From: an uncultured Jannaschia sp.
GTDB lineage: Bacteria; Pseudomonadota; Alphaproteobacteria; Rhodobacterales; Rhodobacteraceae
NCBI GenBank assembly: GCA_947494145.1
Contig: CANLTZ010000006.1
Coordinates: 1-64,000 of the forward strand
DNA length: 64,000 nucleotides
Reading direction: 5' to 3'
Shown in pieces: positions 17,615-20,905 of this stretch; position 1 is the first letter of the stretch, and every line of letters starts with the position of its first letter. Below the pieces are notes generated by a model. It did not search any database and was not told the origin of the DNA. It saw only the letters and a list, made by a program, of their open reading frames with translations. A program made the position numbers and the translations under genes.

Positions 17615-18649
17615 ATGCGCTGCCTCATCGTAGGGGGAACTGGCTTCCAGGGTGGCGCGATCACGGATGCGCTGGCTGCGGCGGGACATGACGTTGCGGT
17701 TCTGACGCGGGGTGTGACCACGCGCGAATTGCCCGATCGTGTGGAGGTGATCCGCGGCGATCGCCACGGGGACATGGCCGCTTTGACGGGGCGCAGCTTC
17801 GATTGGGTCTTCGACACCTGTGCTTTCGCGCCGGATGCGGTGGAACGTCTGCTCGATGTCTTGGGGGATAAGCTGCGGCGCTATGTGCTGATTTCGTCGA
17901 TCTCGGCCTATGGCAGCTTCCCCAAGCCAGGCCTGACGGAAGATGACCCCGTCCCGGATGCGACCGATACCGACCTTGCGGTCGCTGCTGCTGTGGCGCC
18001 CGAAAACCGCGCCTCGGCCTTCGCTTACGGCGCGTCCTACGGCCCGTTGAAGCGGGCCTGCGAGGTGGCCGCATCGGAACGGCTGGGCCCACGGGCAACG
18101 GCCCTTCGCGTCGGGCTGCTTGTGGGCGCGGGGGACTACACTGATCGCCTGACATGGTGGGTGCGGCGGATGGACGACGCGACGGGGCCGCGCGTCCGTA
18201 TGCCCGTCCCGGCCCCCGAGACGCGGCCCGTACAGCTGATCGACGTGCGCGATGTTGCCGATTTCGCCCTGCTTTGCGCGGTGGAGGGGCGTGGCGGGAT
18301 CTGGAATGTCACCAGCGAGCCCATGCCCTTCGCCGACATGCTTGATGCGATCCGCGTGGCAACGGGATCGCGGGCCGAGATCGTTTGGGTGGACGAAGCG
18401 GCCATCGCGGCGGCGGGGGTCGCCCCATGGACCGACATGCCCCTTATGGCGCCGCCTGATTCCAGGTTTCGTCATATCCTTGGGATCGACCCGTCCCGTG
18501 CGCAGGCGGTTGGGCTGGCGACAAGGCCGCTTGCCGATACGCTCGGGCCGGTGGTCGCTTGGGACCGGGGCAGGCGGGACATCCCCCTTCAATGCGGTTT
18601 GACGCCCGAACAGGAACACGCGCTGATCGGGGCGTCCGGCGAAACATGA
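17615..18649 (+). CDS. NAD-dependent epimerase/dehydratase family protein
   Basis: An extended short-chain dehydrogenase of 344 residues. It opens with the nucleotide loop MRCLIVGGTGFQGGA and has the modified central motif SSISAYGS. The active-site Tyr appears within FAYGASYGPLKRACE (YxxxK). The C-terminal half binds substrate (RPVQLIDVRDVADFALLC). It resembles the isoflavone-reductase-like or sugar-reductase groups, and the substrate is not clear. GGGAGAG precedes the ATG at 17615. No biosynthetic neighbours help with its role. Confidence 0.85.
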   Translation: MRCLIVGGTGFQGGAITDALAAAGHDVAVLTRGVTTRELPDRVEVIRGDRHGDMAALTGRSFDWVFDTCAFAPDAVERLLDVLGDKLRRYVLISSISAYGSFPKPGLTEDDPVPDATDTDLAVAAAVAPENRASAFAYGASYGPLKRACEVAASERLGPRATALRVGLLVGAGDYTDRLTWWVRRMDDATGPRVRMPVPAPETRPVQLIDVRDVADFALLCAVEGRGGIWNVTSEPMPFADMLDAIRVATGSRAEIVWVDEAAIAAAGVAPWTDMPLMAPPDSRFRHILGIDPSRAQAVGLATRPLADTLGPVVAWDRGRRDIPLQCGLTPEQEHALIGASGET

Positions 18650-18733
18650 TGTCGGATTGCCTATTCGCGATGACACCCGTGTCTCATGACGCTGGTGGGA
18701 CGTATCCGCCAGCTTCCGCTTCAAGCGAAAGCC

Positions 18734-19708
18734 TCAGGGCCAGACTGGGACGCCGTCCAGACCAGCGGTCTCTGGCAGACCGCAGATCAGGTTGGCGTTC
18801 TGCAACGCTTGGCCCGCCGCGCCCTTGCCGAGATTGTCCACCACGCCCATTGCTATGACCAAGTCACGCTTTGGGTCGGCGGCGTAGCTGACAAAAGCGA
18901 GGTTGGAGCCGGTGGCCCATTTGGTTTGCGGTGGCCTGTCGGTCACGCGGATGAACGCCCTTCCTTCATAGAAGCGCCGGGCGGCGTCCAGGCATTGCTC
19001 CGTCGTGGCGCGACCGCGGCAATAGGTCGTGACAAGGACGCCGCGGGTCATGGGCACCAAGTGGGGTGTGAAGACCAGCCCAGTCGCGCTGCCGCCGCTG
19101 AGCCGCGCAATCGTTTCGGCCATCTCGGGCATATGGACGTGTTTAAGCAGGCCATAGGGGATCAGGTTCTCATTGCTTTCGGCATAGCCGAAGGTGCCGC
19201 CGCCGCCGCGCCCGGCGCCGGAAATACCCGTCTTGGCGTCGATGACGATGTTGCCAGGCTCGATCAACTTGTTGGCTAGCAGGGGCGCCAGCGGGGTCAG
19301 GGTCGCTGCGGGGAAACAGCCGGGGTTGGCCACGCGGGTTTGGCCTTTGATCTGGTCTGGCCAGATATCGGCCAGGCCATAGGCCCATCCGTCCGCATAG
19401 CGATGGTCGCCGCCGATATCGACGATCTTCACATCTTCGGGGACGGGGGCCAGCGCTTCGGCTGACGCACCTGTGGGAAGCGAGGCAAACAGCAGATCGA
19501 GCTTTGGCAGAGCGGTTGGATCCCATGTCTCGATCACCAAGTCGGCCAACTTGCCGGAAAGGCCTGGAAAGCGGTCCCCCAACCGGTCGCCCGCGCTGCC
19601 CGCGCCAGCGGCATAGACCAAATCGAAGGACGGGTGACCCGCGATCAGGCGCATCGCTTCGCCGCCCCCAAAACCGCTGATCCCGACGATGCCCACGCGT
19701 ATGTTCAT
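18734..19708 (-). CDS. argC: N-acetyl-gamma-glutamyl-phosphate reductase
   Basis: ArgC performs the NADPH-dependent reduction of N-acetylglutamyl phosphate to the semialdehyde, the third step of arginine synthesis. The 324-residue protein is the short type common in alphaproteobacteria. It has the N-terminal loop GISGFGGGEAMR, the catalytic Cys131 in ANPGCFPAA, and the later KTGISGAGRGG and HLVPMTRGVL segments. On the same strand, 60-200 bases upstream, lie a small Arg-rich ORF and a strong intrinsic terminator. Expression may therefore be attenuated by arginine supply. No other arg gene is adjacent. Confidence 0.96.
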   Translation of the reverse strand: MNIRVGIVGISGFGGGEAMRLIAGHPSFDLVYAAGAGSAGDRLGDRFPGLSGKLADLVIETWDPTALPKLDLLFASLPTGASAEALAPVPEDVKIVDIGGDHRYADGWAYGLADIWPDQIKGQTRVANPGCFPAATLTPLAPLLANKLIEPGNIVIDAKTGISGAGRGGGGTFGYAESNENLIPYGLLKHVHMPEMAETIARLSGGSATGLVFTPHLVPMTRGVLVTTYCRGRATTEQCLDAARRFYEGRAFIRVTDRPPQTKWATGSNLAFVSYAADPKRDLVIAMGVVDNLGKGAAGQALQNANLICGLPETAGLDGVPVWP

Positions 19709-19767
19709 GATGTTGCCCTTCTGTGGCGGCGGCGCGCCTATTGCGGGTGCGCAAAATGATGTGTCTG

Positions 19768-19798
19768 AAAAAGAAAAAACCGCGCCGAGGGGCGCGGT
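19768..19798 (-). terminator. Strong intrinsic terminator in the argC leader
   Basis: Read on the minus strand: stem ACCGCGCC, loop CCTC, stem GGCGCGGT, then TTTTTTCTTTTT. This is a complete Rho-independent terminator ending about 60 bases before the argC ATG and pointing into argC. It follows the stop codon of a short Arg-rich ORF by 27 bases. An extra copy of the left-arm core (CGCGCC, 19841-19846) in the leader could pair with the 3' arm instead. A simple end-of-operon terminator for an upstream gene is the alternative. Confidence 0.88.
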
Positions 19799-19824
19799 CG
19801 CAGATGAACGATCTTGGACGAGCG

Positions 19825-19881
19825 TTATCGGCGTCGCGCAGGCGCGAAGCAGATACGGCGTCGGAAGAGGTTCAGTTCCAT
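19825..19881 (-). CDS. Putative arginine leader peptide of argC, 18 aa
   Basis: On the argC strand an ATG at 19881 encodes MELNLFRRRICFAPARRR and stops at TAA 19825. Six of the 18 codons are Arg, in two triplets (CGA CGC CGT and CGA CGC CGA), and the CGA codons look uncommon for a genome this GC-rich. A strong terminator follows 27 bases later and argC comes next, which is the layout of a leader-peptide attenuator. There is no good ribosome binding site. A tentative promoter (TTGACG 19912-19917, TATCCA 19888-19893, spacer 18) would start the RNA at or near this ATG, as in leaderless trpL of rhizobia. An in-frame ATG at 19908 would add nine residues. Confidence 0.55.
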   Translation of the reverse strand: MELNLFRRRICFAPARRR

Positions 19882-19887
19882 GGATGG

Positions 19888-19917
19888 TGGATAGGAGAGA
19901 AACGCCATGGCCGTCAA
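19888..19917 (-). promoter_or_regulatory. Tentative promoter of the argC leader
   Basis: Minus-strand TTGACG (19917-19912, five of six consensus bases) and TATCCA (19893-19888, three of six) are separated by 18 bases. The seventh base after the -10 is the A of the leader ATG at 19881. The -10 is weak, so this is a suggestion that fits the leaderless-leader model rather than a firm call. Confidence 0.3.
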
Positions 19918-19981
19918 TGTTGCCATTCCCGTCGGTTTGGCGACACCGTCATCGGCACCTGTCACTGAACGGGACAGATTG

Positions 19982-20506
19982 TCAGCCATGGTGGCGCAGC
20001 AGAGGCGGCAGCGACGACATCGGCAGGGGGCCGCACGGGGTTTCCGGGTTGGCAGAAACCGTCAGGGGGGTGTCGGGTTCAATGCTGCTTTCCCGAATGA
20101 ACGTGTCGTTCACGCAGACATCTTGAAAAGCGTTACCACCGTTGAAGCCGAAGCCGGGTGTGCCGCAATTGTTGACTGCGCCGTTGGCGTTCCATTCCTG
20201 ATAGGTGCCCTGGGCGGGAATGCCACCCATCGGGAAAGACAGAGTGCGCGTGTCGAAACGCAGGATGAAGCTGGTCGAAGGCGTCCGATCCTTGAGCGAC
20301 CATTGACCCAGCAACGTCTCCCCCCGGTAGCCTGCGATGCCGAAATCGGTGACCGTATCTTCGGTGACGATGCCGTCGACCGTGTCGGGATAGCTGATGA
20401 ACCCCTCCATCCGGTAATCGTTGGCACCGATCCAGCAGAAGGCATGGGTGGCGGCCTTGGCCGGGCTGGTCAGAACAAGTGCGGCAAGGAGGGCGGTGCG
20501 GATCAT
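19982..20506 (-). CDS. Secreted protein of unknown function, 174 aa
   Basis: A signal peptide (MIRTALLAALVLTSPAKA, cleavage about residue 18) precedes a mature domain with scattered cysteines (HAFCWIG, NNCGTPG, DVCVND, ETPCGPL). The cysteines could form two disulfides. Several Gly/Asn/Phe-rich strands (PGFGFNGGNAF) suggest a beta fold. It may belong to PEP-CTERM-less envelope proteins of this order, but I cannot name a family. It lies 12 bases downstream of the RidA gene on the same strand and may share its transcript. Confidence 0.75.
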   Translation of the reverse strand: MIRTALLAALVLTSPAKAATHAFCWIGANDYRMEGFISYPDTVDGIVTEDTVTDFGIAGYRGETLLGQWSLKDRTPSTSFILRFDTRTLSFPMGGIPAQGTYQEWNANGAVNNCGTPGFGFNGGNAFQDVCVNDTFIRESSIEPDTPLTVSANPETPCGPLPMSSLPPLLRHHG

Positions 20507-20518
20507 GGCGGGTCTCTC

Positions 20519-20905
20519 TCAGGCGGCGGCGATGGCACGGATTTCAACAAGCGCACCGGGACGACGCAAGGCGGCGACCTCGATCGCGGTCCAGGCGGGG
20601 AAGGGCGTGGCGATGTAGTCGGCCCGAACCTGCGCAAACAGATCGAAATGATCCTGTATCCCGACATGATAGCTTGTCATTTCAACCAAGGCGCCGAAAT
20701 CCAGGCCTGCTTCCGCAAGAACGGCGCCGATCTTGTCGAAGGCGGCGCGGAATTGGGTTTCGGGGTCAGTCGGCATGGTGCCGTCCGGTGCACTGCCAGT
20801 GGTGCCGGACAAGAACAGATGGCCGTGGGACAGGATGCCTGGTGACATCTTGAGAGCTTGCGCGGCCGTGGCGAAGGCGGGCGGGGTGACGGCGGTACGC
20901 ATCAT
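20519..20905 (-). CDS. RidA family (YjgF/YER057c/UK114) protein
   Basis: RidA proteins hydrolyse reactive enamine/imine intermediates released by PLP enzymes. The 128-residue product has the family strands HGHLFLSGTTGSAPDG, the helix FDKIGAVLAEAGLDFGALVEMTSY, and the C-terminal block AWTAIEVAALRRPGALVEIRA with the conserved arginine. Its ATG overlaps the folC stop (ATGA), so it is translationally coupled to folC. It may be a divergent rather than archetypal RidA. Confidence 0.88.
   Translation of the reverse strand: MMRTAVTPPAFATAAQALKMSPGILSHGHLFLSGTTGSAPDGTMPTDPETQFRAAFDKIGAVLAEAGLDFGALVEMTSYHVGIQDHFDLFAQVRADYIATPFPAWTAIEVAALRRPGALVEIRAIAAA

Follow-up and report, generated by a model that had tools for sequence, protein, structure and literature searches.

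The window (the whole 64-kb stretch of DNA that was analysed) carries on its minus strand argC2, a gene for N-acetyl-gamma-glutamyl-phosphate reductase, preceded by a leader that contains a short upstream open reading frame (uORF) rich in Arg codons and a strong intrinsic terminator (Table 1). A sequence-only reading of this DNA had proposed a short ORF beginning at ATG 19881, with six Arg codons in two triplets, and a terminator 27 nt after its TAA aimed at argC; both were present where it had placed them. The uORF is 18 codons long (ATG 19881 to TAA 19827-19825, minus strand), with Arg at 6 of the 18, and the whole terminator (CCGCGCC-CCTC-GGCGCGG-TTTTTTCTTTTT, 19797-19768) lies 27 nt past the uORF stop, is directed into argC and was the sole terminator match in the 64-kb window (criteria, ≥6 stem pairs with ≥6 T per 8 bases). 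The leader was more stably folded than its shuffles (z −3.56; 1 of 200 shuffles equally good).

The tentative promoter of the sequence-only reading was borne out in its geometry (TTGACG, an 18-nt spacer, TATCCA, 6 nt, then ATG 19881), the spacing of which is kept in relatives, but a sigma-70 consensus scan, which demands a closer consensus match, reported no site. The uORF frame stays open upstream to ATG 19989 (54 aa), so we infer the start at 19881 from promoter spacing and relatives. A Pfam search with this 54-aa frame gave no match, DUF2618 included. A chance scan covered 1.46 Mb on both strands (the window plus the collected loci, several of them overlapping) for RRR-containing ORFs of 8 to 40 aa ending at most 80 nt from a terminator; it returned 100 rows, repeats included, of which 1 was unrelated (L131) and all others lay in leaders of the argC2 group.

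Table 1. Features of the argC2 leader and gene in the window (5' to 3' on the minus strand where a motif is given)
Feature	Position	Strand	Basis
-35 box TTGACG	19912..19917	-	TTGAC spacing to uORF ATG kept in L112 and type A
Putative -10 box TATCCA	19888..19893	-	Sequence; L112 has TAAGTA at equal spacing
Leader uORF MELNLFRRRICFAPARRR, stop included	19825..19881	-	Sequence; relatives
First Arg triplet CGA CGC CGT (candidate codons for arginine sensing)	19855..19863	-	Kept in L112; ribosome here gives antiterminator probability of 0.70
Region 1, TCGCG, pairs with CGCGA in ribosome-free RNA	19843..19847	-	Folds
Region 2, antiterminator 5' side; core GCGCG 19839-19835	19828..19839	-	Nascent-RNA folds
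Second Arg triplet CGA CGC CGA	19828..19836	-	Sequence; inside region 2
Antiterminator inner helix, CGCCGATAACG 19833-19823 with CGTTCATCTGCG 19810-19799	19799..19833	-	Folds
Terminator hairpin, 5' arm CCGCGCC 19797-19791 (region 3), 3' arm GGCGCGG 19786-19780 (region 4)	19780..19797	-	Sequence
Terminator U tract TTTTTTCTTTTT	19768..19779	-	Sequence
argC2, N-acetyl-gamma-glutamyl-phosphate reductase, 324 aa	18734..19708	-	TIGR01850, Pfam

The downstream gene had been read as argC, which TIGR01850 upheld (282.5 bits; cut-off, 233.6), but it is an extra, laterally spread argC and not the canonical one. It is the second argC of the source genome, the other copy (on C10) being 34% identical. Relatives of argC2 confirmed in the genome collection (best 80 of 216; 83 to 87% identity) were found in Bosea, Methylobacterium, the Roseomonas group, Reyranella, and others; some of them lie in Cupriavidus, Polaromonas, and Ramlibacter, and argC2 also occurred on six plasmids. 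Among the window's own kin argC2 is rare: 2 of 20 genomes of its genus carry it at 75% identity or more, and at an E value of 1e-80 or better it was found in 5 of the 394 genomes from the family and 6 of the 385 from the class (own genome included in each count). Fifteen leader-bearing genomes were tested with TIGR01850; all 15 had one copy above the cut-off and an additional match below it (124 to 165 bits), the latter taken as the canonical argC.

Leaders upstream of argC2 in other genomes

A long form of the leader (type A) was found upstream of argC2 in 56 of 80 relatives (best 80 of 216). It consists of a TTGAC box, a leaderless ATG 36 to 38 nt on, 3 to 5 Arg codons, and then a terminator, which was kept across the aligned leaders. 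Fifty of the 56 were picked by an ATG ORF with an Arg run and a terminator, and six (L008, L017, L023, L034, L060, and L068) were recovered from the other 30 relatives by covariance model R1. The gene order is leader, GNAT acetyltransferase gene, argC2 in L017, L023, and L060, where the first ORF matches were false (inside the GNAT gene) and were discarded, the true leaders lying further upstream; L034 has the leader followed by GNAT, a GDSL-like gene, and argC2, and L068 has a SnoaL-like gene between leader and argC2. In L008, the leader lies immediately before argC2 and has lost its start codon and promoter. A terminator kept without the Arg-rich ORF had been named by the sequence-only reading as evidence that would count against it; the upstream scan of these 80 relatives gave L008, with its lost start, as the only such case.

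Type-A leaders were also present in the window's own family (L113 and L114, from two genera), in genomes G717 and G794, and before 3 of the 6 plasmid argC2 copies (Agrobacterium leguminum pTiCFBP4996, Methylobacterium aquaticum, and Roseomonas haemaphysalidis). On the Ti plasmid pTiCFBP4996 (L147 3799-3974), the Arg run of the leader consists of two adjacent codons plus one more Arg. The upstream neighbour genes differ between the annotated plasmids L147 and L149. Over a 385-genome class sample, R1 gave strong matches in G717 and G794 only, with weak ones in seven others; weak matches L128 to L134 and L141 look like ordinary terminators near unrelated genes and were rejected.

No leader was seen before argC2 in 24 of the 80 relatives (best 80 of 216; among the 24, L063 has no upstream sequence), and none was found in eight further loci (L083, L115, L145, L146, L150, L155, L157, and L158), so the switch is dispensable. 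The argC2 copies without the Arg leader in L005, L014, L056, L155, L007, L019, L021, and L157 resemble one another upstream, where the shared sequence closes with a TTCGCTCACTCCAGCAGTAGGACACC-like motif, and may have a different control region. On the Paracoccus plasmids L145 and L146, argC2 lacks the Arg leader and a gene annotated as encoding an HD-domain protein follows 12 nt downstream in both; transposase genes lie near argC2 in L145.

The window leader is of a shorter form (type B), found in two genomes. The second is L112 (genome G427, another genus of the family), whose argC2 is 82% identical to the window's and whose leader has the RRR...RRR ORF followed by a terminator that the sequence-only reading had suggested looking for in related argC leaders. 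Its uORF (MSRTIFIRRRLCLAFARRR) has the ATG at −173 from argC, exactly as in the window; the −35 box is spaced identically and the terminator matches. Similarity between the two loci peaks from promoter to terminator: identity is 35% upstream of the −35 box, 69 to 70% over the promoter, the uORF, and the stretch to the terminator, and 56% past the terminator, with 60% at third codon positions of argC2. Covariance model R2 (built from the window and L112) was run over 394 family genomes with stricter filters and gave no third genuine copy; a weak match (G333, L153) was set aside as an ordinary-looking terminator ahead of an unrelated gene. The long and short forms have different RNA stems, and the type-A model R1 did not match the window leader significantly (E value, 0.48 in 165 kb; 8.5e-4 only when searching 291 bases); from position, promoter spacing, and gene, we infer that types A and B are of common origin.

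Of the 50 type-A leaders, 49 have a TTGAC that starts 36 to 38 nt ahead of the ATG; in both type-B leaders, the distance is 36 nt. Such spacing would be expected for a leaderless start. From the ATG to the Arg run, the distance is 27 nt in 36 of the 50 type-A leaders and 30 nt in 14. These 50 aligned leaders were selected for an RRR ORF and cannot test frame conservation; the Arg cluster was nevertheless in frame in all 14 further leaders with an intact ATG, which were found by covariance model or at argC2 loci and not chosen by frame (in two of them, L126 and L147, the Arg run is interrupted or short). Past the Arg run, 11 of the 50 type-A leaders are frame-shifted (L077 is unclear), with the nucleotides nonetheless conserved. 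A frame that is kept as far as the Arg run and then drifts over conserved nucleotides is the pattern of a leader in which the Arg codons count as codons and the later part as RNA.

The 223 Arg-run codons of the 50 type-A leaders comprised 112 CGC, 84 CGA, and 27 CGT, and no CGG, compared with 245 CGG and 17 CGA among the 974 Arg codons in the bodies of the same 50 argC2 genes. By standard wobble rules, CGC, CGA, and CGT are read by one tRNA, Arg-ICG. This bias is no independent proof, because the repetitive CGACGC also serves RNA pairing.

R1 was scanned over 29 leader-bearing genomes (L067's genome left out; places compared with argC2 ranges) and gave 32 strong matches (E value below 1e-30), 30 before argC2 and 2 before a GNAT gene, together with four further weak matches; one of the 29 genomes carries two argC2 copies with the leader. 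In Roseomonas nepalensis (L142 1036-1218 and L143 2105-1923), an Arg leader precedes a GNAT gene alone, and one of the GNAT ORFs is cut short beside a transposase-like ORF. In G794, a decayed leader without a start codon (L135 1501-1674) is fused to an internal argC2 fragment and is a relic of a second argC2 copy. On a tree of 92 ArgC2 proteins (without the incomplete L115 and L150, and with L034 and L068 assigned to the GNAT group), the leader label formed interrupted clusters (16 changes versus a shuffled mean of 30.2), a pattern that fits leader loss or replacement together with lateral transfer. The two type-B rows fell near the drawing root on long branches, where their placement is unsure.

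Predicted folding and the proposed switch

Folding of the nascent RNA extended as far as the terminator loop; the ribosome was taken to cover 15 nt upstream and 11 nt downstream of the first A-site base. Pairing of the terminator 5' arm was scored with bases after position 24 (restricted measure) or with any upstream partner (open measure). By the restricted measure, pairing in the window was absent from ribosome-free RNA (0.00), rose to 0.70 when the first Arg triplet was occupied, and fell to 0.07 at the second triplet and 0.05 at the stop codon; the corresponding open values were 0.01, 0.70 to 0.71, 0.02 to 0.26, and 0.12. The window's predicted switch difference was reached by 0 of 400 dinucleotide shuffles of the intervening stretch, and the difference between stall and stop taken singly by 5 of 400. 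The predicted antiterminator pairs GCGCG (19839-19835) with CGCGC of the terminator 5' arm, atop the inner helix (19833-19799), and is also contained in the RNAalifold consensus structure of the window and L112; in ribosome-free folds of the window, region 1 (TCGCG) holds region 2. The sequence-only reading had a second CGCGCC competing for the 3' arm of the terminator, a pairing that folding replaced with this one to the 5' arm.

Any A-site position from codons 4 to 11 of the window uORF gave 0.57 to 0.71, so the effect is not limited to Arg codons; the codons supply the stall site, and the RNA only needs the stall to be early. In type A, codons 2 to 9 gave 0.52 to 0.62, above the Arg run itself (codons 10 to 14; 0.44 to 0.51). 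Upstream pairing of the 5' arm over the 50 type-A leaders was 0.35 in free RNA, 0.51 when the first three Arg codons were occupied, and 0.32 once the ribosome had passed them; at the run versus beyond, it was up by more than 0.05 in 32 leaders, down in 5, and within 0.05 in 13. The type-A mean difference was 0.194, versus 0.034 over 600 shuffled sequences; because the leaders are related and hence not independent, a Wilcoxon test exaggerates the significance of this difference.

Switching in L112 was weak by the restricted measure (0.30 free, 0.46 on the first triplet, 0.01 on the second, and 0.00 at the stop), a difference matched by 94 of 400 shuffles (21 of 400 when only stall and stop were compared), and there was hardly any change by the open measure (0.64 free, 0.58 to 0.71 on the first triplet, and 0.55 to 0.57 on the second triplet and at the stop). 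Full-length equilibrium folds of L112 had the antiterminator in free RNA and with the ribosome at codons 8 and 10, and the terminator at codons 9, 11, and 18 and at the stop. In full-length equilibrium folds of the window and five type-A leaders, the terminator was kept in every state tried and no switch was seen, so the model needs an antiterminator that folds ahead of the terminator while the RNA is being made, in line with classical attenuation.

Pairing of the two nearly invariant type-A motifs GGCTGCG and CGCAGCC was considered as an antiterminator but was unsupported by folding (mean, 0.15 free and 0.13 to 0.21 stalled) and was rejected. A long-range type-A helix, CAGGAA/UUCCUG, pairs the uORF start with bases before the terminator (43-row alignment, columns 6 to 11 with 171 to 176). 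Of the helices listed, it had the most double-sided changes (4 pairs, 10 cells; slid controls, 1 to 3 pairs and 1 to 5 cells), and it could link translation initiation to termination.

Proposed mechanism and alternatives

The leader most probably acts by ribosome-mediated transcription attenuation, with its Arg codons gauging the arginine supply, and controls the laterally acquired argC2; the attenuator proposed by the sequence-only reading is supported at the level of sequence and predicted structure. Transcription would start at, or one or two bases from, ATG 19881, and the leaderless uORF would be translated while being transcribed. When Arg-tRNA for CGA, CGC, and CGT is short, the ribosome would stall on the first triplet and cover region 1, leaving region 2 (GCGCG...) free to pair with CGCGC of the terminator 5' arm, and with this antiterminator formed, RNA polymerase would continue into argC2. 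When arginine is plentiful, the ribosome would reach the second triplet and the stop and cover region 2, and the terminator would form; in an untranslated leader, region 1 would pair with region 2 and the terminator would form again. The start site, the stalling, and the arginine response are predictions of the model, set beside the anatomy, conservation, frame, codon bias, and predicted switch described above.

It is unlikely that the leader senses slow decoding generally (tRNA-Arg(ICG) modification, CGA wobble decoding, antibiotics, or ribosome stress) rather than arginine, with the Arg run serving as a stall-sensitive spot. CGA is usually decoded poorly, through inosine. Its share of the Arg runs as against the argC2 bodies, the drawing of all run codons from the CGU/CGC/CGA box, and the folding results, which permit stalls at several codons near the start, would suit such a sensor, but 30 of the 32 strong R1 matches precede an arginine-pathway enzyme gene (TIGR01850), in keeping with an arginine signal. 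In Salmonella orf34, moreover, it made no difference whether the Arg codons were rare or frequent (PMC6386406). That the terminated leader acts chiefly in trans, as a small RNA or peptide like rnTrpL/peTrpL, with a secondary cis role, is very unlikely: the build proposed here, a small leaderless mRNA that stops at a strong terminator, is that of rnTrpL (PMC7298713), but each of the 32 strong matches in the 29 genomes adjoins argC2 or a GNAT gene, the peptide's C-terminal sequence is lost in 11 of the 50 type-A leaders, and folding predicts a cis switch. The two roles could coexist. A chance ORF before an ordinary terminator serving the upstream gene (19982-20506), with argC2 having its own promoter after it, would accommodate a frame open for 54 codons without the proposed start and the 24 of 80 relatives (best 80 of 216) with no leader, but is highly improbable given that L112 and most of the 56 leaders keep the spacing of the promoter, the start codon, the Arg run in frame, and the terminator, that 1.46 Mb held one unrelated ORF-terminator combination, and that upstream neighbours vary on plasmids L147 and L149.

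Relation to known systems

The usual textbook control of arginine genes is the ArgR repressor, T-boxes bind uncharged tRNA directly, and ribosome-mediated attenuators of amino acid biosynthesis are known for trp, his, leu, ilv, thr, and phe. The argC2 leader has in common with these attenuators a short uORF, clustered codons for the end product, an intrinsic terminator before the gene, and, as folding predicts for the window and on average for type A, an antiterminator that depends on ribosome position; it differs from them in that the amino acid is arginine, the gene is a second, laterally spread argC, and there are two forms. A leaderless trpL attenuator is described for rhizobia, and the start at the AUG predicted for the argC2 leader would match that of Sinorhizobium meliloti trpL (PMC7298713).

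In Salmonella orf34-speF (DUF2618), consecutive Arg codons of the uORF, a feature of both systems, sense arginine by ribosome pausing (PMC6386406). There, a polyamine gene is controlled via Rho-dependent termination, ribosome-binding-site access, and RNase G (PMC6386406), whereas the argC2 terminator is intrinsic; nor does the leader belong with orf34-speF, since DUF2618 had no match in the 54-aa frame and the downstream gene is argC. The Rhodobacterales cysS leader uORFC-8-2 likewise has a conserved start and tandem cognate codons, with ribosome-mediated attenuation proposed, but its codons are for cysteine and its gene encodes a tRNA synthetase (PMC8632094), against Arg codons and argC2 in the window. 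Pseudomonas carA has a leader peptide and proposed attenuation before an arginine/pyrimidine synthesis gene, but that attenuation is reported to respond to pyrimidines, with a transcriptional arginine control (PMC4997734).

Rfam 15 gave no family at gathering in the 64-kb window (T-box, riboswitches, and leaders) and nothing but below-gathering matches in scans of window positions 18600-20600 and of five loci (L002, L003, L022, L033, and L044). Searches of the open-access literature likewise yielded no arginine attenuator before argC, in keeping with the sequence-only reading, which knew of none established; argC is absent from the available part of PMC2965389, and no such arginine element appears in those of PMC10117765, PMC8632094, and PMC3091783. 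T-boxes are given as RNA-level control of arginine genes (PMC1262725), and these and the polyamine-gene leader are the RNA controls reading arginine in the literature found, so far as the available portions extend.

The leader is probably new, an arginine addition to the ribosome-mediated attenuators that rides with a mobile argC. More tentatively, and with our expectation leaning slightly the other way, attenuator and argC2 may form a portable arginine-starvation cassette, transferred together laterally (on chromosomes and plasmids) atop the canonical argC; the recipient would gain a reserve ArgC, sometimes with a GNAT enzyme, that is on only with uncharged tRNA-Arg(ICG), and a trans function of the terminated leader, as small RNA or as peptide, may come in addition. 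If confirmed, the leader would be a biosynthetic leader-peptide attenuator for arginine and would show that attenuator and gene can cross orders together; its diverged versions, more than 60 in number, would provide a natural set for ribosome/polymerase timing by leaderless uORFs.
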